Shown: piece after piece, positions 3,784 through 63,713 of the stretch | How the letters are laid out: every line of letters begins with the position of its first letter | Numbering within the stretch: the stretch's first letter is position 1 | Translations under genes and position numbers: made by a program | NCBI RefSeq assembly: GCF_001189515.2 | Contig: NZ_CP012069.2 | Location: 2,728,001-2,792,000, forward strand | Length of the DNA: 64,000 bases | Direction: 5' to 3' | Origin: Olsenella sp. oral taxon 807 | GTDB lineage: Bacteria; Actinomycetota; Coriobacteriia; Coriobacteriales; Atopobiaceae | Notes under the pieces: model-generated | What the model was told of the DNA's origin: nothing | Databases searched by the model: none | What the model saw: the letters and a program-made list of their open reading frames with translations, nothing else

Positions 3784-5400
3784 ATGCCGTTCATAAAGGT
3801 GCAGAAGCTGGTCAGGGACGAGTCCGGCGCAATCAGGAGCGGGTCCGCCGCCGTGGTCGACACGTCGTACGTGCGCGGCGCCAAGTACCACTCGGCGCAG
3901 GCGGTGCGCGAGAGGCTGGGCAAGGTCGTCTGGCTCGCGGACGACAGGCGCTCGGGCGTGTTCGCGTCACCGACGCGCGGCCTGGTGGAGTACGACGCGG
4001 ACGCCGACGGATTCGCGCCGGTGGCCAAGGGCGACGAGCGGCTGGCGAACACGGGCGCGTTCCCCGAGCCGCCGCGGCACCTGGAGCTCGGCCCCGAGCA
4101 CCTGCTGCTGTCGTTCCTGGGCGCCGATGGGGTCGCGGGGTGCCTCAGGGAGGCGCTCCCCGACGACCGGTCCTACCAGCGCGCCCTCGCCCACGTCACG
4201 CACGGCGTGGTGCGGGACGGGAGCCGCGAGACCTGCGACAACATGGTGGCCAGGTCCTTCGCGGCTCTGGCGCTGCCGGGCGTGCCGCCCGCGTCGCTGA
4301 GATCGGACACGGCGTTCTTCTCGGCGATGGGCGCCGACGGGGCGAAGGTCGCGTTCTTCAGGGCGTTCGCCAGGCTCATGAGGAGGACGAAGCCCGGCTT
4401 CGGCCGCGCATGCTACGTGGACTCCACCCCGCTCCCGAACGACGCGGTCGACAACCCGCTCAACGCCCTCTGCAGCCACGGGCTGAGGGGCGCGGCGGTC
4501 CAGATGCGCCTCGCGCTCGTGCTCGACGAGACGACGGGGCTGCCCGTCTGGTACGAGGTCGTGCCCGGCAACGTACTTGACCTCTCGACCATAAAGACCG
4601 TGATGGGCGACGTCCTCGCCACGCTCGGCATCGAGGTCGTAACCGCGGTCCTCGACGCGGGCTACGCGTCGCGCGAGCTGCTCGAGGCCTTCTCCGAGGG
4701 CGAGAGGGACGTGCTGGTCAGGATGCCGGCGAGGAGGGGGTACCCGTACCGCGAGCTCTGGCGGGGCGTCCGCTCTCTGATCGGCAAGGGCAAGTACGCG
4801 ATCACGCGCTCCGGCCACCTCTACTTCGCCAGGAGGCGCGACGTCGAGGTGCAGGGCGTGAGGCTGCACTGCTACGTCTACGTGGACCAGACCAACGCCA
4901 CGCCGCGCTTCGCCAGGTGGCTGGACAAGAACCAGGAGAGGTTCGACGGGATGTCGCTCGCCGAGAAGGACTGGGAGACCGTGCGGCAGGGCTACTTCGT
5001 GCTGATGTCCACCAAGGTCGCGACGCCCCGCGAGATCCTGGACGAGTACTTCTGCCGCACCGAGATCGAGGGCGTCTTCAAGACCAGCAAGGACTACCTG
5101 GGCCTGCTGCCGCTGCGCAAGTGGAGCGACCTCACCGTGCGCGGCAAGATCCTCGCCGACATCATCGGCACCATCGTGGTGCTCAGGATGCGCAAGGCGC
5201 TCGCCGGGGCCGACGTCTCCCTCACCGAGGTATGGGGCAAGGCCAGGTCGCTGTCCTGCTACACCAACGCCGACGGCAGGGTCGTGGTCGAGACGCCGTC
5301 GAGGCAGGTCCGCGAGTACTACAAGGCGCTCGGGGTGAAGGTGCCCTCGTCAATCGACGTCAGGGAATTCGACCGTGACGTCCTCGGCCTGGAGCTGTAG
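3784..5400 (+). CDS. IS1634/IS4-superfamily DDE transposase
   Basis: A 538-residue DDE transposase that appears intact. The three acidic residues are in recognisable blocks: YVDSTPLPND (first Asp, about 223), VTAVLDAGYAS (second Asp, about 290) and CRTEIEGVFKTSKDYLGLLPLR (Glu, about 428, in the Y-x-R-E-like region). The stretch VRGKILADIIGTIVVLRMR after the Glu is typical of the IS1634 group. Start 3784 has GGGAGG eight bases upstream; an upstream in-frame ATG lies too close to the promoter. It catalyses excision and integration of its own element. It is full length, so the copy may be active. Confidence 0.92.
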   Translation: MPFIKVQKLVRDESGAIRSGSAAVVDTSYVRGAKYHSAQAVRERLGKVVWLADDRRSGVFASPTRGLVEYDADADGFAPVAKGDERLANTGAFPEPPRHLELGPEHLLLSFLGADGVAGCLREALPDDRSYQRALAHVTHGVVRDGSRETCDNMVARSFAALALPGVPPASLRSDTAFFSAMGADGAKVAFFRAFARLMRRTKPGFGRACYVDSTPLPNDAVDNPLNALCSHGLRGAAVQMRLALVLDETTGLPVWYEVVPGNVLDLSTIKTVMGDVLATLGIEVVTAVLDAGYASRELLEAFSEGERDVLVRMPARRGYPYRELWRGVRSLIGKGKYAITRSGHLYFARRRDVEVQGVRLHCYVYVDQTNATPRFARWLDKNQERFDGMSLAEKDWETVRQGYFVLMSTKVATPREILDEYFCRTEIEGVFKTSKDYLGLLPLRKWSDLTVRGKILADIIGTIVVLRMRKALAGADVSLTEVWGKARSLSCYTNADGRVVVETPSRQVREYYKALGVKVPSSIDVREFDRDVLGLEL

Positions 5401-5429
5401 TTCTACAATTAGCGTCATCTAGGGTTGAA

Positions 5430-5809
5430 GATTGCGGGCCTCATGGCTACGCCTCCTTCCACACAACAATTTGTGTTTGCCTTCGTAAATTGTAAAAGAT
5501 TTCAGTAATTTATCGTAGTTAATAAATTGTTTGTAACAAGCTAGAAATATCAGTTCCATTTCGAGACGTGACTCACCTTGGGTGTGCTCGACCTGTCACA
5601 GCTCTGGTAGTCGGAGTAATCCAGTCGGCAGCAGGGATAGATGCCCGCAAGGGGTCAATCGCTCTGGATTCGCCACTTCGATTTCGTTCAAAATGGGCTC
5701 CTCATAGTTTAGCAGGTAGCACAAGGGAGGGCCGTTGGGGGGGTGTAGCTTTCGTGGCGACCGGACGGTATCATTCCGCGCCAGGTCGGCGAGCATGCGA
5801 ACACACTCC
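5430..5809. other. Non-coding stretch after the IS
   Basis: About 380 bases. The first 120 are AT-rich (runs of AAATTGT and TTAATAAATTG), unlike the flanks. The rest is GC-neutral with no supported gene. A short minus-strand peptide frame with a hydrophilic C-terminus is open here but has no ribosome-binding site. Confidence 0.5.
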
Positions 5810-6568
5810 CTACCTTCCGAAGGCGACAAATCTCATCAGATCGACAAGCCCATGGGCGATCATGGCGGAGGCAACATCCCTTCTCCTCTGCAGAACGGCA
5901 AACGGCAGCCCAAAGAGCAGTGCCAGGACGGCAGACTCCACCAAACCGTATTGATGTGCCAGGGCATGGGGAACGACCATCATAAACCACATCGTGAGCG
6001 TCCGTGGCCTTGACCTATCCCTGCCATACGTAGCTAGACAGAAGACCATGAACGCAGCCCTGCAGACCACCTCCTCCATAATGGCAGGGCTAAGGCTTGC
6101 TATGAGCTTGTCCATCGAGAGCGACGGGACAATGGGAGCATTGCTCATGCCAAAAAGGCAGTTGACGACCCCGAGAGACACACCCACGACAACCCCCACG
6201 ACGATGCTAACCAGCACCGCCCCCTTGCCACCTTCCCTGATGATCGCAAAGCCGCCGACACTACCATGCACGCCAAACATTGCCATCGAGCAGACGAGCG
6301 TTGAGGCAAACACGAGCGCTGCCCCGGCAGAAAGACTGTGACTAGCTACCGATGTGGAGATTGCGGCAGCCAATGCCAGAGCAAGCGAAACCCCAACCTG
6401 CCTCGGCTGGGGCCTTTCATAGTTGAGCAGCATATACACGGACAAAGCTGATGCCCACACGAGCAGCACAGGCCAGAGCAGCACCGAAAAGCTGAGGTAG
6501 AGCACGAAAAAGATCGCGAAGACACCCCACAGCAGGATGGACGGAGCTATCGTCTTTCCCTTGTTCAC
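5810..6568 (-). CDS. CPBP-family intramembrane metalloprotease
   Basis: A 252-residue membrane protein with about seven hydrophobic segments. The CPBP (CAAX protease and bacteriocin-processing, formerly Abi) signature is present: EEVVCRAAF (Glu-Glu-x3-Arg, about residue 173), then a first His in VVPHALAHQ and a second in IAHGLVDLMRF. These residues place the active site within the membrane. The family includes type II CAAX prenyl endopeptidases and bacteriocin self-immunity proteins; which applies here is not shown. The GTG start is chosen because a perfect AAAGGAGGT lies eight bases upstream; a longer frame beginning at 6661 has no such site. Confidence 0.82.
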   Translation of the reverse strand: MNKGKTIAPSILLWGVFAIFFVLYLSFSVLLWPVLLVWASALSVYMLLNYERPQPRQVGVSLALALAAAISTSVASHSLSAGAALVFASTLVCSMAMFGVHGSVGGFAIIREGGKGAVLVSIVVGVVVGVSLGVVNCLFGMSNAPIVPSLSMDKLIASLSPAIMEEVVCRAAFMVFCLATYGRDRSRPRTLTMWFMMVVPHALAHQYGLVESAVLALLFGLPFAVLQRRRDVASAMIAHGLVDLMRFVAFGR

Positions 6569-6762
6569 CCTGCCGACCTCCTTTAGGATGCCAGCTCCTC
6601 CACGGCATCGCCGACTGTCCCCATCCGAGGTACCATGCGTATGCCTCGACCCATCGCTCACCGTAATGACTTGCCGGCGAGCTGGACGTTATGGTACATC
6701 TATGCTTGCAAAATGTGCAAGACATGTATAGGATAACTTACCACTTCTGAAAGGACACGGAC

Positions 6763-7785
6763 ATGGCGAAGAAGGTAGGGAAGGTACTGCTGAGGATCTT
6801 TGTGTCCCTCGTCTGCGTCATCGTGCTCATTGCCGTCACGATATTTGGCCTTCGTTGGTACAACGGCAGCAAGTACACGATCATGCAGCGGGCCTTGTCG
6901 GTGCGCGAGACCCAGTACGAGACGAACGACTCAATCCGAGCCATCAAGGGCGCCTACCTCAAGGGCTTTCACTTTATCCCGAAGGAGCGCACGCACCCGG
7001 GCACCGTTGTCGTCTACGGAGGCTCCGAGGGCTCGCCGGGATACGAGCAGGCAAAGGCGATCTCCGAGCAAGGCTATGAGGTTCTTGGCCTCTACTTCTG
7101 GGGACAGGAGGACCAGGCTCCCACCCTCGCAAACGTCCCGCTCGATCAGTTCGAGGAGGTTCAGACCTACATAAGGGACAACGTAGACCGGCCGTCCCCG
7201 ATCACCGTCATCGGCACGTCGAAGGGCGCCGAGTTCAGCGCCGAGCTTGCCGCACACGGCTTCGCCATCGATAACCTCGTGAACTTCACCCCGGCAGACC
7301 ACAGCTATGCCGGCCTCGACTACACAAGCCAAAACGAATTCCCAAGCTTCACCTACCAGGGTCAGGCCGTGCCCTTCGTGTCGCTTCGCAAGGCGGATCC
7401 CAGTGCCTCGGCAAAGCTCATGTGGGATCTCGCGACAAACTACCCGCCCTCGTTTCGCGCGTCCTATGAGTCCGCTGCCGCCAACGCCGACAACGACACG
7501 AGAATCGACCTGTCAGGCTTTAGGGGCAACGCCCTCTTCTTTGCGGGGGATCAGGATGCCATGTGGCAGGGCGACAGCTCGGCAAAGAACCTCGCCTCCC
7601 AGTCGGACTCTTTCGAGGCTCATATCTATTCCGGTGCTGGCCACGCATTCTCTGATCACCTTCCCGAGTATGGCAGCGGGTGGGAGATCATGCTCGGTGG
7701 CACGGCCAAGGCCGGAGCCAAGGCTCATGCAGACTCGATGAGAATCCTCCTTGACCGCCTGTCCCAGTGGCACGGCCAGATGTGA
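6763..7785 (+). CDS. Membrane-anchored alpha/beta hydrolase (BAAT-C-like)
   Basis: A 340-residue protein with one N-terminal membrane anchor (about 8-31) and an extracellular alpha/beta-hydrolase domain. The nucleophile elbow is GTSKGAE (Ser about 149), the acid probably lies in FFAGDQDAMW and the His is in YSGAGHAFSD. The arrangement resembles the C-terminal domain of acyl-CoA thioester hydrolases/BAAT and of dienelactone hydrolase relatives. The natural substrate is unknown. AAAGGA precedes the start by nine bases. It diverges from the CPBP gene, so the two have separate promoters. Confidence 0.8.
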   Translation: MAKKVGKVLLRIFVSLVCVIVLIAVTIFGLRWYNGSKYTIMQRALSVRETQYETNDSIRAIKGAYLKGFHFIPKERTHPGTVVVYGGSEGSPGYEQAKAISEQGYEVLGLYFWGQEDQAPTLANVPLDQFEEVQTYIRDNVDRPSPITVIGTSKGAEFSAELAAHGFAIDNLVNFTPADHSYAGLDYTSQNEFPSFTYQGQAVPFVSLRKADPSASAKLMWDLATNYPPSFRASYESAAANADNDTRIDLSGFRGNALFFAGDQDAMWQGDSSAKNLASQSDSFEAHIYSGAGHAFSDHLPEYGSGWEIMLGGTAKAGAKAHADSMRILLDRLSQWHGQM

Positions 7786-54583: not shown

Positions 54584-56146
54584 CTAGGTATTACAGGGCG
54601 TCTGGTCTGCAGCAGCGAGCTCGCACTCAGTCTCATCGGGGTCACAGTTCACGTAAAAGCTGATGTTGGCAAGGATCTTCGTGTAGGGACCGGCGTGCTC
54701 ATTTCTCACGTAGACGTCGTAGCTGCAGTCGTCAAAGGGGTTGAGGTCGGGTGCACGCAGCCTCTGTTCATCGGCCACCTCGTCGTGAAAGACGTCCGTC
54801 GCGCTGGCAAGGACGCACACCGTCTCAAAGAGGAGGTCGAGCATCTCCCCGTATGCACCCTCGCCCAACGCCCCGCCGTAGACGATGTCATCTTGCAGGT
54901 CCTGGTAGGACAGACCGTCACGGTGCTCATCCATGACGAACCAGATGCGCTCCCCCTTGAGGCTGACCCAGCCAAGCGAGGAAGAGGCGTACACCCGAAA
55001 GTCACCCTCCCGCCCGTTGAGGTAGAGGGTGATGGCGTCGCCCCTGTCAGCCTCATCCCTCGGGTCGAGCTCAAAGGACAAGAACCGGGAGACCTCGCTT
55101 CGCTGAAGTCTTCGCACGAGGCCATAGACCCTCAAGCGCAGCGAGCCTGGCTCCCGCCCCTTTGAGTCCTCGTCCTGTGACCAAGCCAAAGATCTCGTAG
55201 CGTTCGCGCAAGGCGAGGCAGAGGGGGTGCCGTGCGCCCACACCCAAGTGCCCGAAAGGGCGGGGCCATAGCGAAGTGCGAGCTTACGTGCATCCAACTC
55301 GCAGGAGCCGTCCTCCCTCGCCCAGTTGCCGCTGTACGGGGGCGTCATGGGCGGATTGGGAGGGCTCGACTGCCGCGTGCGATAACCAGAGAAGGACACG
55401 CAGGGTCGAAAGGAGAACGCAGGACCAAGCCGCAGCTCCCGCAGACTCGAGCAGCCAAAGAGCATGTAGGCCAGATCCTCCGCCCTCGACGTGTCCCAAC
55501 CTGAAAGATCGAGCGAGGAGAGGGACGAGCAGCCAAAAAACGTATGGGACAGATCGGTCACCTTGGACGTGTCCCAACAAGAGACATCCAAGGCCAAGAG
55601 CGAGGAGCAGTTACAGAACGTCTCGTGCAGGTTTCTTAGCTTGGGCACGGTCCAGCCCGTGAGGTTAAGGGTGGAGAGCGAGTTGCAATCCTTGAACATG
55701 CTGGACATGTCCTCAACCCGTGACGTGTCCCAGCCCGAGAGGTCGAGCCGCTCGAGCGAGGAGCAGCCCTCGAACATGCTAGACATGTCCTCCACCTTAG
55801 ACACGTCGAGGCCTGCAAGATCCATGCTCACACAGCTGTCAGAGTTCCAGAACAGAGTTTCTGCCCTGCCAATCAAGTGCACTGTCCCGAGCACTCGGAC
55901 GGCATGGACCTTGTTCTGCGTGTGCCAAATGCCACGCGTAAACTGAGTAAAGACGCTTGTCCCACGCTTCTCTCCCTTTGCTGTTCCCTCCCTCTGTCCA
56001 GGGGCGGGAGCGATCCAGAAGGTACCATCCGCGTCGAGCCCACAGCGGCAGCTGTCCCATGCGGTCCACGTGGCGACGGCTGGCTCTTCGAGGGCTGCCG
56101 CGTCCGATCTCTTGGAAGACGCGCTCCCGCAGGGCATCTCGCACAT
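54584..56146 (-). CDS. DUF285 leucine-rich repeats fused to array domain (5 repeats)
   Basis: A 520-residue protein. An N-terminal WDSCRCGLDADGTFWIAP segment is followed by five DUF285/BspA repeats of 23 residues (LDLSGWDTSRVEDMSSMF type, about 105-240) and a C-terminal domain shared by all genes of this operon (LQRSEVSRFLSFEL, LYLNGREGDF, SYDVYVRNEHAGPY, NISFYVNCD). BspA repeats usually sit in secreted adhesins, but there is no signal peptide here. ATG 56146 follows the previous stop by one base and GGGAGG by eight; ATG 56179 would overlap it. Last gene of the operon. Confidence 0.75.
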   Translation of the reverse strand: MCEMPCGSASSKRSDAAALEEPAVATWTAWDSCRCGLDADGTFWIAPAPGQREGTAKGEKRGTSVFTQFTRGIWHTQNKVHAVRVLGTVHLIGRAETLFWNSDSCVSMDLAGLDVSKVEDMSSMFEGCSSLERLDLSGWDTSRVEDMSSMFKDCNSLSTLNLTGWTVPKLRNLHETFCNCSSLLALDVSCWDTSKVTDLSHTFFGCSSLSSLDLSGWDTSRAEDLAYMLFGCSSLRELRLGPAFSFRPCVSFSGYRTRQSSPPNPPMTPPYSGNWAREDGSCELDARKLALRYGPALSGTWVWAHGTPSASPCANATRSLAWSQDEDSKGREPGSLRLRVYGLVRRLQRSEVSRFLSFELDPRDEADRGDAITLYLNGREGDFRVYASSSLGWVSLKGERIWFVMDEHRDGLSYQDLQDDIVYGGALGEGAYGEMLDLLFETVCVLASATDVFHDEVADEQRLRAPDLNPFDDCSYDVYVRNEHAGPYTKILANISFYVNCDPDETECELAAADQTPCNT

Positions 56147-56147
56147 C

Positions 56148-58040
56148 TCAGGACCTCCCACTCTTGCTTGGACGGACATCGCAGTTCACGTGGAAGGTGA
56201 CGTTGGCGAGCGTCTTCGTGTAGGGCTCAGAATGGGTATTCCTCACGTAGACGTCGTAGCGGAAGTCATCAAAGGGGTTGAGGTCGCGGGCGTGCGCCCT
56301 CTTCTCGGCTACCGTCTCTGTATGGTAGACGTCAGTCGCACCAGCAAAGGAGCGCACCGTCTCAAAGAGGAGCGCAGCCACCTCAGAGGAGGTCACGCTC
56401 TCGATCGCACCCCCATAGACGATGCCACCTCGCAGATCCTGGTAGGTCAGCCTGTCCCTGAAGCTCTCCGTGACAAACCAGACGAGCTCATCTCTGCAAT
56501 GGACCTGAGAAAACGGGGAGGCAATGCTCAGCCAGAAGTCCCCATCCAGTCCATTGAGGTAGGGGGAGGGAACACCTGGCCTCCCGCACCCAATCCCCCG
56601 CTCGGACGAGAAGGTCAAAAAGTTAGAAAAGTCGCTACACTCAAGCCTTTCTTCGAAGAAGATGAATTCCTTGCTGGAGAGGTCGATACCGTAGGAGGGC
56701 GGACGTTCCGCCTCTGGCACCTGGAGAACACCGACGCTCACTCCATAGCACACGATTCTTTCCGCACCTTCGTCCCTCTCGGGTGGCTCACCAACAGCCT
56801 GGGTATCCGTCGTCCGCACCCACGTGCCCGCAGGGGAGACTTCGCGCCCCTCTGCCAACTCGGCTGCCTTTATCCTATCTGCTCCATCCTCACGGACCCA
56901 ATTGTTGTTATAGGAAATCCCCATTGAGGAGTCGGGAAGCTTGACCCAGGCGGTTTCCTCTTGAAGGAGGTAGGGCAGAAAGGGGCACCGGGGGCCAAGT
57001 CTCACCTCGCGCAGGCTCGAACACCCACGTAGCAGGTTGCCAAGATCCCTCTCGCCTGACATGTCCCAACCCGAGAGGTCAAGGGAGGTAAGGGACGCGC
57101 AGTCTGCGAACAGGCCGGACATCGTCCTTGCCCTGCGCACGTTCCAGCCCGAGACGTCAAGACACTTGAGGGAAGAACAGCTGCTAAACATGCTATACAT
57201 CTCCTCCACCCCGGACATGTCCCAACCCGAGACGTCGAGGGAGGCGAGCGAGAAACAGTTCGAGAACATACCGGAAGTAACTGCCACCTGCGACATGTCC
57301 CAACCCGAGACGTCGAGGGAGGCGAGCGAATTGCAGTCCGAGAACATGTAGTCGGTAAACTTCACCCGTGACATGTCCCAACCTGACATATCGACGGAGA
57401 CGAGCTTTCTGCAGGAGGAAAACATGCACGACATCCCCGCTACCCTCGATGTGTTCCAACCTGAGAGGTCAAGGGAGACGAGCGAGGAGCAGGTGCAGAA
57501 CATGCGCACTGTAGAATACACCTTTGAGGTGTCCCAACCCAAAAGGTCGAGGTTCACAAGTCCCCTGCAGTCATTGAACACAGCCTCCATGGACCTCACC
57601 CCCGAGGTATCCCAACCCGAAAGATCAAGGGAGGTAAGGGATAGGCAGCGATAGAACATCCGGGTCATGTCCTGCAGCCCGGACGTGTCGAGTCCAGTAA
57701 GATCCATGTCCTTGCAGTGCGTAAGGCCCGCGAACATGCGGTTGGCATAGCCGACAAGGTGGACGGTGCCGAGCGCCTTTACGGATCGTATGTCCTTGGA
57801 CCGGGATCGCCACGGAGCTCCATTGCCGTAGCTGGACTCTATCCATGTCTCGCCCTTTGGCAGGCTCTGCGCCGTTCCCTCCGTCCGACCTGCGGCAGGG
57901 GTGATCCAAAGCGTGCCTCCCGCGTCGATCCCCCAGCGGCAGCTGCCCCACGAGTGCCACCCGCCTACGATGGTGTCATTGATGGGCGCGGCGTCCTCTG
58001 AGGTGCGGGGGGCACCCTCGCACTGGCCCGTCTTGTCCAT
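56148..58040 (-). CDS. DUF285 leucine-rich repeats fused to array domain (9 repeats)
   Basis: A 630-residue protein with the same plan as its neighbour: WGSCRWGIDAGGTLWITP, nine 23-residue DUF285 repeats (about 111-325, e.g. LDVSGWDMSGVEEMYSMF), a 120-residue joining region, and the operon's shared domain (LECSDFSNFLTF, YLNGLDGDFWLS, FRYDVYVRNTHSEPY, NVTFHVNCD). No signal peptide or anchor. The difference in repeat number from the neighbour shows expansion or loss of units. ATG is one base after the previous stop (TAGcATG). Confidence 0.75.
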   Translation of the reverse strand: MDKTGQCEGAPRTSEDAAPINDTIVGGWHSWGSCRWGIDAGGTLWITPAAGRTEGTAQSLPKGETWIESSYGNGAPWRSRSKDIRSVKALGTVHLVGYANRMFAGLTHCKDMDLTGLDTSGLQDMTRMFYRCLSLTSLDLSGWDTSGVRSMEAVFNDCRGLVNLDLLGWDTSKVYSTVRMFCTCSSLVSLDLSGWNTSRVAGMSCMFSSCRKLVSVDMSGWDMSRVKFTDYMFSDCNSLASLDVSGWDMSQVAVTSGMFSNCFSLASLDVSGWDMSGVEEMYSMFSSCSSLKCLDVSGWNVRRARTMSGLFADCASLTSLDLSGWDMSGERDLGNLLRGCSSLREVRLGPRCPFLPYLLQEETAWVKLPDSSMGISYNNNWVREDGADRIKAAELAEGREVSPAGTWVRTTDTQAVGEPPERDEGAERIVCYGVSVGVLQVPEAERPPSYGIDLSSKEFIFFEERLECSDFSNFLTFSSERGIGCGRPGVPSPYLNGLDGDFWLSIASPFSQVHCRDELVWFVTESFRDRLTYQDLRGGIVYGGAIESVTSSEVAALLFETVRSFAGATDVYHTETVAEKRAHARDLNPFDDFRYDVYVRNTHSEPYTKTLANVTFHVNCDVRPSKSGRS

Positions 58041-58041
58041 G

Positions 58042-58638
58042 CTAGTCCCTCTTGCCCGGAGCGTCGCAGTTCACGTGAAAGCTGATATTGGCGAGCGTCT
58101 TCCTGTAGGGAGCGGTGTGGGCGTTTTTTACATAGACGTCGTAGGAGCTATCCCTGATCTGATCGAAGCTCGGTGAATGCCACCTCTTTGCATCGGCCTC
58201 CTCATCGTGGGAGACGTCGGTCGCTCCCGCAAAGATACGCACCACCTCACAGGCGAGGTCGATCAGCTCGGCCCTAGGTCTGTCCAAAATCGGCCCATTG
58301 TAGATGATGTCCCCATAGACATCCTCGTAGCCATAGGTATCCCTGGCTGAATCCTCGATGAACCGCACGAGCTCGCCCCTGAAGCAGACGTCAAGAGTGT
58401 CGGAGCCAAAGCCAACGTAGAAATCACCGACCCTCCCATTAAGGTTCAGGCAAAACCCACCATCGCTCTCCTCCTGGAGGTCATAGGTCAAAAACCGCGA
58501 GACCTGGCTTCGCTGGAGCCTTCGCATGAACCAATCAACCTCGGCGCGGGTGAAGTCATCGCCCCTCTCGACGAGGCCAACCGGCCCGTCCCCAACCCAA
58601 TACGCGTGCCTCACCCTTCTGCGAATTATTCTGCCCAT
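58042..58638 (-). CDS. Array-domain protein A4 (predicted immunity)
   Basis: A 198-residue A-type member: LQRSQVSRFLTYDL, LNLNGRVGDFYVGF, EVVRIFAGATDVSHDE, SYDVYVKNAHTAPYRKTLAN, ending HVNCD-APGKRD. The family is unknown to me; it is soluble and acidic. GGGGGGAT precedes the ATG. Member of the operon headed by the deaminase-like secreted protein, which suggests an antitoxin role. Confidence 0.68.
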   Translation of the reverse strand: MGRIIRRRVRHAYWVGDGPVGLVERGDDFTRAEVDWFMRRLQRSQVSRFLTYDLQEESDGGFCLNLNGRVGDFYVGFGSDTLDVCFRGELVRFIEDSARDTYGYEDVYGDIIYNGPILDRPRAELIDLACEVVRIFAGATDVSHDEEADAKRWHSPSFDQIRDSSYDVYVKNAHTAPYRKTLANISFHVNCDAPGKRD

Positions 58639-58679
58639 GCGTATCCCCCCAACCGACTACCCCCAGATAGGCAGGCGAC

Positions 58680-59306
58680 TTAGCCGCCATCTGCCTCCAC
58701 GCTACACCTCCTCACCCAGTCTACTCCCGTGGCGTCACAGTTCACGTAGAGGGTGATGTTGGCGAAAGTCCTCGTGTGGGGGACCGCGTGGGCATTTCTC
58801 ACGTAGACGTCGTAGCGACAGTCGCGAAACTCACTGAAATTGTGCTCACGTCACCTCCACTCGGGAAGCGTCTCGTCATGGAAGATGCCCTCCGCGCCTG
58901 CGAAGATGCACACCACCTCAAAGAGAAGCCCGAGCACCTCCTCGTGGGACCCGCCCTCCATGGGGCCGCCGTAGACGACCTCACCCTGCACGTCCTGATG
59001 AGCGGTGAGACTCCTGAAGCGCTCGGGAACGAACCAGCCGGCCTCCCACATGCAGCAGACGTCTAGGTTGTAGGGATCAATGCCTGCGTTGAAGCCCCCC
59101 GTCTCCCAGTGAAAAGCAGGCTGAAGCCGTACTCCCTCTCGTCGATCTCGTCGGCGTCGTAGGAGAGGAAGCGCGAGACGTCGCTGCACTAGCCTGTCTA
59201 TGAGGTGGCGGCGGGCCTCTTCCCACGAGAATTCCATCCCCCTGGGTGGAGGGTCCAGCCAGCGTCCCCGCTCAACGTAGATCCGCACCTCGCCCTCGTC
59301 CGCCAT
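58680..59306 (-). pseudogene. Broken array-domain gene A3
   Basis: From ATG 59306 (GGAGGAGC upstream) the frame matches the family, then is shifted over about 59187-59100, where the true sequence DVSRFLSYDADEID is found in another frame. It returns to phase at NLDVCCMWEAGWF and meets an in-frame TGA at 58851-58853 (EWR-stop), after which REHNFSEFRDCRYDVYVRNA continues to a stop at 58680. Two compensating frameshifts plus one nonsense codon. Confidence 0.75.
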
Positions 59307-59387
59307 AGCCAAGCTCCTCCCGAAGACCTCCCGACGAGCCCGGGGTCTCACGGGCACGGCCCTGCGCAGCCGGGTCCCGGGCGGACC

Positions 59388-60035
59388 CTAGCCGAGCTCC
59401 ACCTCCCACGGTCCCTCCCACGGCCAGTCCTTCCACTCGGTGTCACAGTTCACGTGGAAGGTGATGTTGGCAAGCGTCCTCCTGTAGGGGCCGGTGTGGG
59501 CGTTTCGCACGTAGACGTCGTAGATGCAGTCGCCGAAGTCCCCGAAGTCCGACTCGCGCCACTTCCACGCCGGGCGGGTCTCCTCGTGGAAGGCGTCCGT
59601 CGCGCCGGCGAAGACGCGCACAACCTCGAAGACGAGGTCGAGGATCTCCTCGTGGGTCCTGCCCGAGATCGGCCCGGCGTAGACGACCTCCCCGTATGCG
59701 GCGTCGCGGGAGATCCCGACGCGGTAGGCCTCGTCGGCGAGGTGGACGCACTCCCCGAGGCAGCAGACCTCGCAGGACCGGGCGTCGAGGTGGGCGTAGA
59801 ACCCGCCGACCCACCCGTTCAGGTACAGGCTGTAGTCGTCGTTGCGCTCGTCGTGGAGCCGGTAGGAGAGGAAGCGCGAGGCGTCGCTTCGCTGGAGCCT
59901 CCCCATGAGCCAGTCGGCCTCCTCGCGCGAGAAGCCCGGGTCCCGCAGGCCCCGCCGCTCCCGCAGGGCCGCCGGGCCCGCCTCCGCCGACCACGCGCGG
60001 GCGAGGCGCCTGCGCTCCCCGGCCTCGGCGCCCAC
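59388..60035 (-). CDS. Array-domain protein A2 (predicted immunity)
   Basis: A 215-residue A-type member: REEADWLMGRLQRSDASRFL, LYLNGWVGGFYAHLD, VVYAGPISGRTHEEILDLVF, YDVYVRNAHTGPYRRTLANI. The GTG start follows the B2 stop by one base (TAGcGTG). The C-terminal 110 residues are almost identical to A1; the region after LNGWVG is variable, so that is where partner specificity might be. Confidence 0.7.
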   Translation of the reverse strand: MGAEAGERRRLARAWSAEAGPAALRERRGLRDPGFSREEADWLMGRLQRSDASRFLSYRLHDERNDDYSLYLNGWVGGFYAHLDARSCEVCCLGECVHLADEAYRVGISRDAAYGEVVYAGPISGRTHEEILDLVFEVVRVFAGATDAFHEETRPAWKWRESDFGDFGDCIYDVYVRNAHTGPYRRTLANITFHVNCDTEWKDWPWEGPWEVELG

Positions 60036-60036
60036 G

Positions 60037-60690
60037 CTAGACCCCCTCCCCCGCGGCCGGCGCGGGGAGGTCGCCGAACCCCTCCCAGTCTGCCGGCTCG
60101 GCGTCGCGGTTCACGTGGAGGGTGATGTTGTCGAGGGAGAGCAGGTAGGGCCCCGTGTGGTCGTTTCGCACGTAGACGTCGTAGGAGCGCCCCGAGAAGG
60201 GGTCGCCCGCCGGGCCGTCCCACCCGCCGGGCCGGCGCAGCTCGTCGTGGAAGACGCCCGTCGCCCCCGCGAGGGCGCGCACCAGGGCATAAAGGAGCGC
60301 GAGGACCTCCCTCTGGGTCCTGCCCGAGATGGGCCCGGCGTAGGCGACGTCGCCCTCCCCGACCCGGGGCGCCACCTCGGCCCTGACGCGCTCGTCGACG
60401 AGCCAGACGCGCTCCCCCATGATGCGGACCCTGGCGATGCCGGGCTCCGACTCCACCCTGAAGTCGCCGTCCGGCCCGTTGAGGCACAGCGCGTGCCCGC
60501 GCTCGCCCTCCTTCTTAGGATCGCAGGTCATGAAGCGCGAGACGTCGCTCATCGCGAGGGAGTCGGAGAGCTCCCAGGCCGCGTCGAGGTCCATGAGGCC
60601 CGTCCGCTCGACGAACCTCCGCAGTTGGGGCACCTCGGACCACTCCACCTCCACCGGGTAGTTGAACCTCCTGCGTACCGTCTCCCCCAC
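60037..60690 (-). CDS. Array-domain protein B2 (predicted immunity)
   Basis: A 217-residue B-type member: GETVRRRFNYPVEVEWSEV, SLAMSDVSRFMTCD, LCLNGPDGDFRVE, YAGPISGRTQREVLALLYAL, SYDVYVRNDHTGPYLLSLDN. It shares the core with the A type but has its own N-terminal 60 residues. GTG 60690 is chosen from GGGAGGCGAGG upstream and equal length with B1; the longer frame to 60867 crosses the leader. Confidence 0.7.
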   Translation of the reverse strand: MGETVRRRFNYPVEVEWSEVPQLRRFVERTGLMDLDAAWELSDSLAMSDVSRFMTCDPKKEGERGHALCLNGPDGDFRVESEPGIARVRIMGERVWLVDERVRAEVAPRVGEGDVAYAGPISGRTQREVLALLYALVRALAGATGVFHDELRRPGGWDGPAGDPFSGRSYDVYVRNDHTGPYLLSLDNITLHVNRDAEPADWEGFGDLPAPAAGEGV

Positions 60691-60800
60691 CCTCGCCTCC
60701 CTGTCCGTTGCGGCGCATCGCGCCAATTTACCGTTGTTGGCTCGCTCGCTACCGTTGGAAGCATATGTAGCACGAGTGGACGTTGGGTGGAGTGAAGTAG
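60691..60800 (-). promoter_or_regulatory. Internal leader/promoter region before B2
   Basis: Contains the block CCACTCGTGCTACATATGCT, which also lies before the toxin-like gene (63781-63800 region), and the hairpin GGCGCGATGCGCC, also found before B1 (62268-62280). Probably a secondary promoter carried along with the duplicated unit. Confidence 0.45.
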
Positions 60801-60948
60801 CCTGCGAGCGGCGCGGGAGGGTCGGCTGGAGACTCTTAGCCCCATACGCGCGTCCTGCGGCGCGCACCTCATGCAGGCGACTCAGCCGCCACCCGCCTCC
60901 ATGCTACGCCACGGGCACGGCCCCGCGCAGCCGGGTCCCGGGCGGACC

Positions 60949-61587
60949 TTAGCCGAGCTCCACCTCCCACGGCCCCTCCCACGGCTGGTCCCCCCACTCG
61001 GTGTCGCAGTTCACGTGGAAGGTGATGTTGGAAAGCGTCCTCCTGTAGGGGCCGGTGTGGTCGTTTCGCACGTAGACGTCGTAGATGCAGTCGCCGAAGT
61101 CCCCGAAGTCCGACTCGCGCCACTTCCACGCCGGGCGGGTCTCCTCGTGGAAGACGCCCGTCGCGCCGGCGAAGACGCGCACCACCTCGAAGACGAGGTC
61201 GAGGATCTCCTCGTGGGTCCTGCCCGAGATCGGCCCGGCGTAGACGACCTCCTCCCAGGCGGTGTCGCAGGAGATCCCGACGCGGTAGTCCTCGTCGGCG
61301 AGGTGGACGCACTCCCCGAGGCAGTAGACCTCGCAGGACAGGGCGTCAAGGCTGACGTAGAGCTCGCCGACCCATCCGTTCAGGTACAGGCTGTAGCCGT
61401 CGTCGTCCTCGCCAATGATCTGGTAGGAGAGGAAGCGCGAGACGTCGCTTCGCTGGAGCCTCCCCATGAGCCAGGCGGCCTCCTCGCGCGAGAAGCCCAG
61501 GCCCCGTCGAACCCGCAGGTCAGCCGGGCCCGCCTCCACAGGCCACGCGCGGGCGAAGCGCCTGCGCTCCCCCACCTCGGCGCCCAC
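60949..61587 (-). CDS. Array-domain protein A1 (predicted immunity)
   Basis: A 212-residue A-type member (REEAAWLMGRLQRSDVSRFL, LYLNGWVGELYVSLD, VVYAGPISGRTHEEILDLVF, YDVYVRNDHTGPYRRTLSNI). GTG one base after the B1 stop (TAGcGTG). B1-A1 and B2-A2 are a duplication with a period of about 1.55 kb. Confidence 0.7.
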   Translation of the reverse strand: MGAEVGERRRFARAWPVEAGPADLRVRRGLGFSREEAAWLMGRLQRSDVSRFLSYQIIGEDDDGYSLYLNGWVGELYVSLDALSCEVYCLGECVHLADEDYRVGISCDTAWEEVVYAGPISGRTHEEILDLVFEVVRVFAGATGVFHEETRPAWKWRESDFGDFGDCIYDVYVRNDHTGPYRRTLSNITFHVNCDTEWGDQPWEGPWEVELG

Positions 61588-61588
61588 G

Positions 61589-62242
61589 CTAGCCCCCCGC
61601 CCCCGCAGCCGGTGCGGGGAAGCTGCCGAACCCCTCCCAGTCTGCCGGCTCGGCGTCGCGGTTCACGTGGAGGGTGATGTTATCGAGGGAGAGCAGGTAG
61701 GGTCCGGTGTGGTCGTTTCGCACGTAGATGTCGTAGGAGCGCCCCGAGAAGGGGTCGCCCGCCGGGCCGTCCCACCCGCCCGGCCGGCGCAGCTCGTCGT
61801 GGAAGACGCCCGTCGCCCCCGCGAGGGCGCGCACCAGGGCGTGGAGGAGCATGAGGACCTCCCCCCGGGCCCTGCCCGAGATTGACCCGGCGTAGGCGAC
61901 GTCGCCCTCCCTGACCCGGGGGGCTGCCTCCCCCCTGGCGCGCTCGTCGACGAACCAGATGCACTCCCCCATGATGCGGACCTTGGCGAGGTCGTGCTCA
62001 ATCTCGACCCTGAAGTCGCCGTCCGGCCCGTTGAGGCACAGCGTGCGCCCGCGCTCGCCCTCCATCTTAAACTCGTAGGTCATGAAGCGCGAGACGTCGC
62101 TTCCCTGGAGGGTGCGCGAGAGGTCCCTCGCAGCGCCGAAGCCCACGAGGCCCAACCTCTCGCGCTCCCGCACCCAAGCGAGCACCCTAGGCCACTCCAC
62201 CCCCACCGGGTAGTTGAACCTCCTGCGTACCGTCTCCCCCAC
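61589..62242 (-). CDS. Array-domain protein B1 (predicted immunity)
   Basis: A 217-residue B-type member, first after the secreted deaminase-like gene: GETVRRRFNYPVGVEWPRV, LQGSDVSRFMTYEF, LCLNGPDGDFRVEIE, SYDIYVRNDHTGPYLLSLDN. GTG 62242 follows GGGGAGGCGAGG. A 100-base leader separates it from the toxin stop. The open frame reaching 62581 overlaps the toxin gene and is not used. Confidence 0.7.
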   Translation of the reverse strand: MGETVRRRFNYPVGVEWPRVLAWVRERERLGLVGFGAARDLSRTLQGSDVSRFMTYEFKMEGERGRTLCLNGPDGDFRVEIEHDLAKVRIMGECIWFVDERARGEAAPRVREGDVAYAGSISGRARGEVLMLLHALVRALAGATGVFHDELRRPGGWDGPAGDPFSGRSYDIYVRNDHTGPYLLSLDNITLHVNRDAEPADWEGFGSFPAPAAGAGG

Positions 62243-62342: not shown

Positions 62343-63713
62343 TCAGGCAGCAGACGGCATGTCCTTCCTGAGATCACCGCCCCTCCCATTGAGGGTGAGG
62401 ATCGGACACAGCTCGTGCTCGCAGGCCCATCGCACACGCAAACACGCCACCGAGCAATCCGCCTGCTGAGTGCCCCCGGATGACTCGACGTCAGACTTAA
62501 ATATGGTCCCCCTGACAAAGCGCTGCCTCCCAAACTGCCGCTCGCACTTCTCGCATACCGGCACGAGCTTAAAATCCCCATCTATGGGCCTAGGGCGGAA
62601 CGGTTGGATCATGACGATGTTCTCTATCTCGGGCCTTATCACCTGCCCTCTTCCACCGGGCTTGTCCATGTAGAGGCCACCCAACGCCCTCACGCAGGCG
62701 GTCTCCGCACAGCTTCTGTCCTCGTCATCCTTGCTGTCCTTGCCGATCTGCCACTCGATAGGCAGACCGCACGTATAATATGACCCCGACAGCTTTTGCA
62801 GGATCTTTATGGCCCCAGGCCTGCCCTCCGAAAGCTTCACCCCTATGGCGCTCTGCTTTGTCCTCCTATTGTGTCCCACCACCACGACGGAGGCATCGTT
62901 CCTATCCTTCTTCTCCAGACTTTTTGTCTCAACCAGCTCGTCGAGACGTTCGAGTAGCCTTGTCCTTGCGTCCACGAGGGTCTGTTGCACCCCTGGGTCA
63001 AGAGTCCCCCACGTCGTACTAGGCACGGTCACACTGATGCTGCTATAGTTATCGACTATGTAGGAGCTGATGTCCAGGCCGAGCCAGCTCGCGCCGATGA
63101 TAACCCCGTCGAGGGCCACCGTGCCGAGGACCGTCACGACGACGATGATGTCCCTGTCCACCCCCGGGATCGAGCCCGCGCATATCAGGAACGCCCCGGC
63201 GCCCCCGAGCGCGAGTATCCTCGCGATGTTCTCGCGCATCAGCAGCCTGATGAAGGTCATCTCGATGGCATGGCCGAGCTCCAGCACGGCGCCCTCCGCG
63301 GCCGCGCTCAGCGAGAGGAGGCGGGCGTACTCGGACATGGCGCCGGTCTCGGGGGTATCCTGGAGCCGCGCCATGCCGGGCAGGGCTGCGGCGCAGAACT
63401 GCGCCCGAGAGATCTCAACCCCGTCGATGGTCACGGCGGACTCAGAGAGCGTGACCGCGCCCTCGCCCAGGTACGGCTCCCCGGCGTCCCCGTCCTCGTC
63501 AGCATCTACATCGTCAGCATCGACCGAGGCCACCCGGACGCCCGGGGCACCTCCCGCAGCCCACGCCCCAAGGTCCGCGTCGGCGGGCGTACGTGCCTCG
63601 GCCCCCACGGTCGCGGCCCACCCCCTCGCGAGCACGCGGGTAGGCGGGAGCGTGGAGAAGCACAGCGACACGCTCAGGACGGCCACGAGGAGCCTTCTGC
63701 AGATCTGTCTCAT
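62343..63713 (-). CDS. Secreted protein with C-terminal deaminase-like toxin domain
   Basis: A 456-residue exported protein. Signal peptide about 1-30 (ICRRLLVAVLSVSLCFS, cut near VLARG), an acidic linker, a helical region with two hydrophobic segments (IARILALGGAGAFLICAGSI and IIVVVTVLGTVALDGVIIGA, about 155-205), and a C-terminal domain from about 270. That domain reads VVVGHNRRTKQSAIGVK, then SCAETACVRALGG and VCEKCERQF, the CAE ... CxxC zinc arrangement of YwqJ-like nucleic-acid deaminase toxins. AAGGGG precedes ATG 63713. It heads an operon of eight related small genes, consistent with toxin plus immunity. Deaminase activity is inferred from the motif only. Confidence 0.68.
   Translation of the reverse strand: MRQICRRLLVAVLSVSLCFSTLPPTRVLARGWAATVGAEARTPADADLGAWAAGGAPGVRVASVDADDVDADEDGDAGEPYLGEGAVTLSESAVTIDGVEISRAQFCAAALPGMARLQDTPETGAMSEYARLLSLSAAAEGAVLELGHAIEMTFIRLLMRENIARILALGGAGAFLICAGSIPGVDRDIIVVVTVLGTVALDGVIIGASWLGLDISSYIVDNYSSISVTVPSTTWGTLDPGVQQTLVDARTRLLERLDELVETKSLEKKDRNDASVVVVGHNRRTKQSAIGVKLSEGRPGAIKILQKLSGSYYTCGLPIEWQIGKDSKDDEDRSCAETACVRALGGLYMDKPGGRGQVIRPEIENIVMIQPFRPRPIDGDFKLVPVCEKCERQFGRQRFVRGTIFKSDVESSGGTQQADCSVACLRVRWACEHELCPILTLNGRGGDLRKDMPSAA

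Follow-up and report, generated by a model that had tools for sequence, protein, structure and literature searches.

A multi-copy orphan domain fused to DUF285 leucine-rich repeats in a candidate polyimmunity locus of Olsenella sp. oral taxon 807

Leucine-rich repeats (LRRs) of the DUF285/BspA type are normally displayed on the cell surface. Among PARCEL ORFs, those without membrane targeting have been grouped as category H, the nature of which was left open (Roeske et al. 2010, PMC2996958). Two arrangements reported by Zhang et al. 2012 (PMC3482391) are the homogeneous polyimmunity locus and the polyimmunity protein; the latter comprises at least two immunity domains per polypeptide, is encoded in operons that usually lack a toxin, and perhaps does not occur in the same bacteria as extended polyimmunity loci. 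The same study predicted so-called Imm-LRR immunity proteins (its Table 3), with actinobacteria and tenericutes among the hosts (PMC3482391).

An earlier sequence-only reading had proposed that LRRs joined to an immunity domain inside the cell would be a new use of the repeat. The repeats are real, leaderless and present at three loci, and the domain joined to them is not a cell-wall module; the claim of newness in kind gives way, Imm-LRR and polyimmunity proteins having been described in 2012 (PMC3482391) and untargeted PARCEL ORFs in 2010 (PMC2996958). Immunity proteins with LRRs are already known, as are PARCEL ORFs without a leader; their combination, in which DUF285 repeats are joined to an orphan domain that recurs throughout a candidate immunity operon, has no earlier report among the open-licence papers searched.

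A tandem domain array behind a secreted candidate toxin

The window, a stretch of 64,000 nucleotides from Olsenella sp. oral taxon 807, contains eight copies of one domain of about 190 residues, all on the minus strand and in tandem (54584-62242), behind a candidate toxin gene. In the order of transcription the array comprises copies A, B, C, D, the frame-broken copy E, copy F, and the two LRR-bearing genes G and H, which share the domain with these six neighbouring copies. The first gene (62343..63713, minus strand) encodes a secreted candidate toxin of 456 residues that displays (i) a signal peptide, (ii) a hydrophobic hairpin at residues ~162-213, and (iii) a cysteine-rich C-terminal region with the deaminase-like motif CAE-x50-CxxC, a pattern picked after inspection that recurs in 0.2% of shuffles (probability 0.002). 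The protein matches nothing in Pfam, NCBIfam, PADLOC or the PDB, the YwqJ-deaminase profile PF14431 misses it at E values up to 10, and homologues are absent from 140 genomes of the family, from GTDB contigs and from plasmids. AlphaFold2 modelling of the C-terminal region from a single sequence reached a pLDDT of 32. Because family match, PF14431 hit and usable fold prediction are all missing, a deaminase toxin is retained as a lead only.

Copy A (61589..62242) is assigned a GTG start because it is homologous to copy C; the longer alternative given by the ORF list overlaps the toxin gene. Copy B (60949..61587) is coupled to A via TAGC-GTG. Copies C (60037..60690) and D (59388..60035) are duplicates of A and B, respectively, and are coupled to each other in the same manner. 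Copy E (58680..59357, ends approximate) is a pseudogene within the array, with an internal stop and two frames, of which the part at 58851-59357 is open; it is followed by the standalone copy F (58042..58638), of 198 residues. The starts of B, D and G lie one base past the preceding stop (TAGCGTG or TAGCATG) and are preceded by purine-rich sites, as expected for translational coupling. The array falls into two compositional classes, since third-position GC in copies A-D (0.93-0.97) lies above that in F, G and H (0.73-0.75); the value for ClpB is 0.85.

Tandem same-strand paralogues, short intergenic distances and the lack of a toxin gene in between correspond to the layout of a homogeneous polyimmunity locus. 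Two further features favour such an assignment: a toxin-like gene stands first, followed by tandem copies with stop/start coupling at three junctions, and the domain proteins are leaderless while the first gene encodes a signal peptide.

DUF285 modules lacking an export signal

The adjacent ORFs of copies G (56148..58040, minus strand; 630 residues) and H (54584..56179, minus strand; 531 residues) are both real and intact. G starts 1 nt past the stop of F, and its last 32 nt are shared with the start of H. Both proteins match DUF285 (PF03382) well above its curated cut-off of 25 bits, with 8.5e-46 and 155 bits for G, and 1e-27 and 96.7 bits for H, and both match the NCBIfam PARCEL repeat TIGR02167 (E 1.7e-47 and 1e-28, respectively). 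Counted in the C..L register with a spacing of 26 residues, the LRR module comprises nine repeats in G, flanked by an N-cap and a C-cap, and five in H; in each protein it is followed by the shared domain, and the C-terminal ~150 residues of both proteins can be aligned with the other copies of the operon.

Neither G nor H has a signal peptide, a lipobox, a transmembrane segment or an in-frame upstream extension, in agreement with the sequence-only reading, which had described both as devoid of an export signal. Hydropathy over 17 residues peaks at 1.28 in G and 1.41 in H, compared to 2.26-2.71 in seven control DUF285 proteins of the same genome, each with an N-terminal hydrophobic segment. A missed in-frame signal peptide, one of two findings that reading had named as fatal to it, was looked for and is absent from both genes, because stops precede the two ATGs by 10 and 2 codons; the intervening stretches, TATLRARGTS and TA, contain no signal peptide. 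The second such finding, a shared domain that is itself a cell-wall module, is contradicted by the standalone copies, which are likewise leaderless and predicted to be globular. Across the genome, the export signal is absent from all four LRR proteins that carry the shared domain and present in all seven checked DUF285 proteins that lack it.

Trichomonas has leaderless BspA-like proteins that might arrive at the surface by some unknown means (PMC2843621), so that the whole family could in principle be surface-displayed via a route without a classical signal peptide. We consider this very improbable here: standalone domain copies are leaderless too, none of the four DUF285-domain fusions has a transmembrane-like segment, and a signal segment is present in the genome's ordinary DUF285 proteins.

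Matches to the LRR N-cap in other genomes, where the N-terminus is readable, mostly display a signal-like segment. The order nevertheless includes genomes with a few DUF285 proteins that lack a leader (L085 and L086, the former phage-related in appearance); these have other fused regions and no shared domain. A secreted DUF285 gene at L049:4468-6953 is split in two frames, the signal part at 6060-6953 and the repeat part at 4468-6063, and is likely a frameshifted copy of its neighbour L049:1758-3473. A pair of distant loci (L051:1263-7382 and L053:4087-9693) encode secreted DUF285 proteins, about 2000 and 1900 residues long, that share the same final 300 residues, which resemble S-layer-homology repeats. 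In addition, DUF285-like repeats are found in 90 phage records (Synechococcus, Prevotella, Listeria, Aeromonas, Butyrivibrio and others), and a congener (G041, contig C21, about 136389-141077) carries them within an open frame of 11160 residues.

Recurrence at three loci and an orphan domain

The search for other DUF285 fusions to the shared domain, which the sequence-only reading had suggested, revealed two more loci in the same genome, bringing the total to three: (i) at 1119666-1122857, a single protein of 1063 residues comprising three domains followed by a DUF285 module, and (ii) at 2631199-2634511, a two-domain gene followed by a gene for a domain and a DUF285 module. A leaderless DUF285 fusion is thereby found at all three loci that carry the domain. 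In both other loci the domain comes first, separated from the LRR behind it by a linker of roughly 25-45 residues. The position of this linker is where the window has its F/G and G/H gene borders, and the module order across the borders reads domain-LRR-domain-LRR-domain. The earlier description of nine and five repeats fused ahead of the domain is thus accurate as to counts and fusion, whereas the order is a gene-border effect, because the borders fall at the linker position.

PARCELs reportedly move horizontally and also turn up in untargeted ORFs whose meaning was not understood (PMC2996958), and the LRR might accordingly be a passenger, a mobile module captured beside the domain that lost its signal peptide and contributes little. 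This appears quite unlikely, since complete modules with N-cap and C-cap are open at three loci and in frame with the domain, their four N-caps sharing 44-54% pairwise identity; for the same reason the fusions are taken to be old and maintained. Against their own profile the four N-caps score 199-219 bits, by construction, and the best match of that profile outside this genome, among the 298 further genomes sampled from the order, reaches 98 bits, in a frame of 964 residues.

The shared domain itself retains 33 invariant columns among the seven intact window copies and 10 among 13 copies. An AlphaFold2 model of copy F, built from an alignment of 13 paralogues, is confident and globular, displaying an α+β fold with a pLDDT of 83.5 and a pTM of 0.83. 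The domain has no match in Pfam, NCBIfam or PADLOC, and none of the known Imm families in Pfam recognises any of the 13 scanned copies at E values up to 10. Structural comparison of the model with the PDB (Foldseek) yielded a best E value of 0.13 and no convincing match, a viral structure search a best E value of 0.05 and VIA-align a best Z of 4.6 over 85 residues, neither of them a usable match. No homologue turned up in 140 genomes sampled from the family, 299 from the order or 396 from the phylum, nor in plasmids. GTDB and viral contigs likewise yielded none, in scans that relied on short peptide patterns and are blind to remote relatives. Weak matches appeared in the phylum sample (E 0.0003-0.05), of which the two best were inspected and judged chance, one lying inside a secreted coiled-coil-like protein and the other in an ORF that runs opposite a longer frame on the other strand; the remainder are shorter and weaker. 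Within the searched samples, the domain thus appears to be an orphan, with no homologue found beyond its own genome.

The copies seem to diverge fast, with a Ka/Ks of about 1.0 for two recent pairs, a value that may reflect relaxed constraint or the extreme third-position GC of 0.93-0.97, and not selection for diversity. Most forks in a tree of the 13 copies lack resolution.

No toxin candidate was seen among the flanking ORFs of either other locus, so two of the three loci lack one, and it is there that the two- and three-domain proteins occur. Together with the lack of a recognised family for the domain and the first gene, and with structure searches that gave no usable match, this lends some weight to a different explanation, in which the domain is not an immunity domain and forms with the LRR an intracellular protein-interaction family (e.g., a sensor or adaptor) that lies behind a secreted protein by chance. 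We regard it as somewhat unlikely, for tandem domain copies behind a secreted protein, accompanied by multi-domain versions, are the described polyimmunity layout.

Proposed function and relation to known systems

The explanation we prefer, and judge to be about an even call, is a homogeneous polyimmunity locus accompanied by polyimmunity proteins, in which a cytoplasmic LRR serves as an extra binding module. The repeats, their fusion to the domain, the missing export signal, the recurrence at three loci, the confident globular model and the operon layout are established; that the secreted protein is a toxin, that the domain confers immunity and that the LRR binds toxins is what we infer. The secreted candidate toxin would head the operon, with the eight tightly coupled copies of the orphan domain downstream on the same strand; these would most likely reside in the cytoplasm and bind the toxin and its variants, and the DUF285 module would probably provide a second protein-binding surface, as an Imm-LRR unit within a polyimmunity protein. 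Besides the operon layout, arguments for the polyimmunity assignment are the leaderless DUF285 fusion at each of the three loci, the multi-domain proteins at the two toxin-less ones, the contrast in export signal between DUF285 proteins with and without the domain, the confident fold, the fast divergence of the copies, the earlier prediction of Imm-LRR and the low shuffle probability of the toxin motif. Points against it are the presence of a toxin candidate at only one of three loci, the lack of a family match, a PF14431 hit and a usable fold prediction for that candidate, whose motif was picked after inspection, a domain unlike any known immunity family by sequence, the failure of structure searches to return anything usable, a Ka/Ks that may have other causes, and the joint occurrence here of polyimmunity-type proteins and an extended array, two things that perhaps do not coexist in one bacterium (PMC3482391). 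A bolder version, which we hold to be unlikely, is that the DUF285 scaffold has moved inside the cell and, together with a new orphan immunity domain, forms a fast-changing platform that recognises a family of secreted bacterial toxins; this would constitute a prokaryotic parallel to LRR-based recognition.

DUF285/PARCEL proteins without a leader have stood unexplained since 2010, and the locus provides a specific example of what they may do; the orphan α+β domain, for its part, is a candidate for an additional immunity family. Should the fusions prove protective, an adhesin repeat would have been reused as an intracellular binding scaffold.

Compared to polyimmunity loci and proteins (PMC3482391), the present system shares tandem same-strand paralogues, small gaps, multi-domain polypeptides and extra loci without a toxin; on the other hand, its domain has no match in Pfam or NCBIfam, the array is preceded by a candidate toxin gene, and multi-domain proteins and an extended array occur together in one genome. 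The secreted first-gene protein resembles YwqJ-type and other polymorphic-toxin deaminases in the CAE ... CxxC arrangement of its C-terminal region, but it differs from YwqJ-type deaminases in having no Pfam match and in being missed by PF14431, leaving membership unsupported. With the DUF285/PARCEL (TIGR02167) surface proteins, copies G and H have in common the 26-residue repeat and caps like those of secreted Coriobacteriia proteins, from which they are distinguished by the absence of an export signal (PMC2996958). Finally, Imm-LRR systems display leucine-rich repeats in immunity loci, either in heterogeneous polyimmunity loci or beside T5SS toxins (PMC3482391); in the present candidate immunity operon, headed by a candidate toxin, the repeats are of the DUF285 type and are fused to a second, repeated domain.
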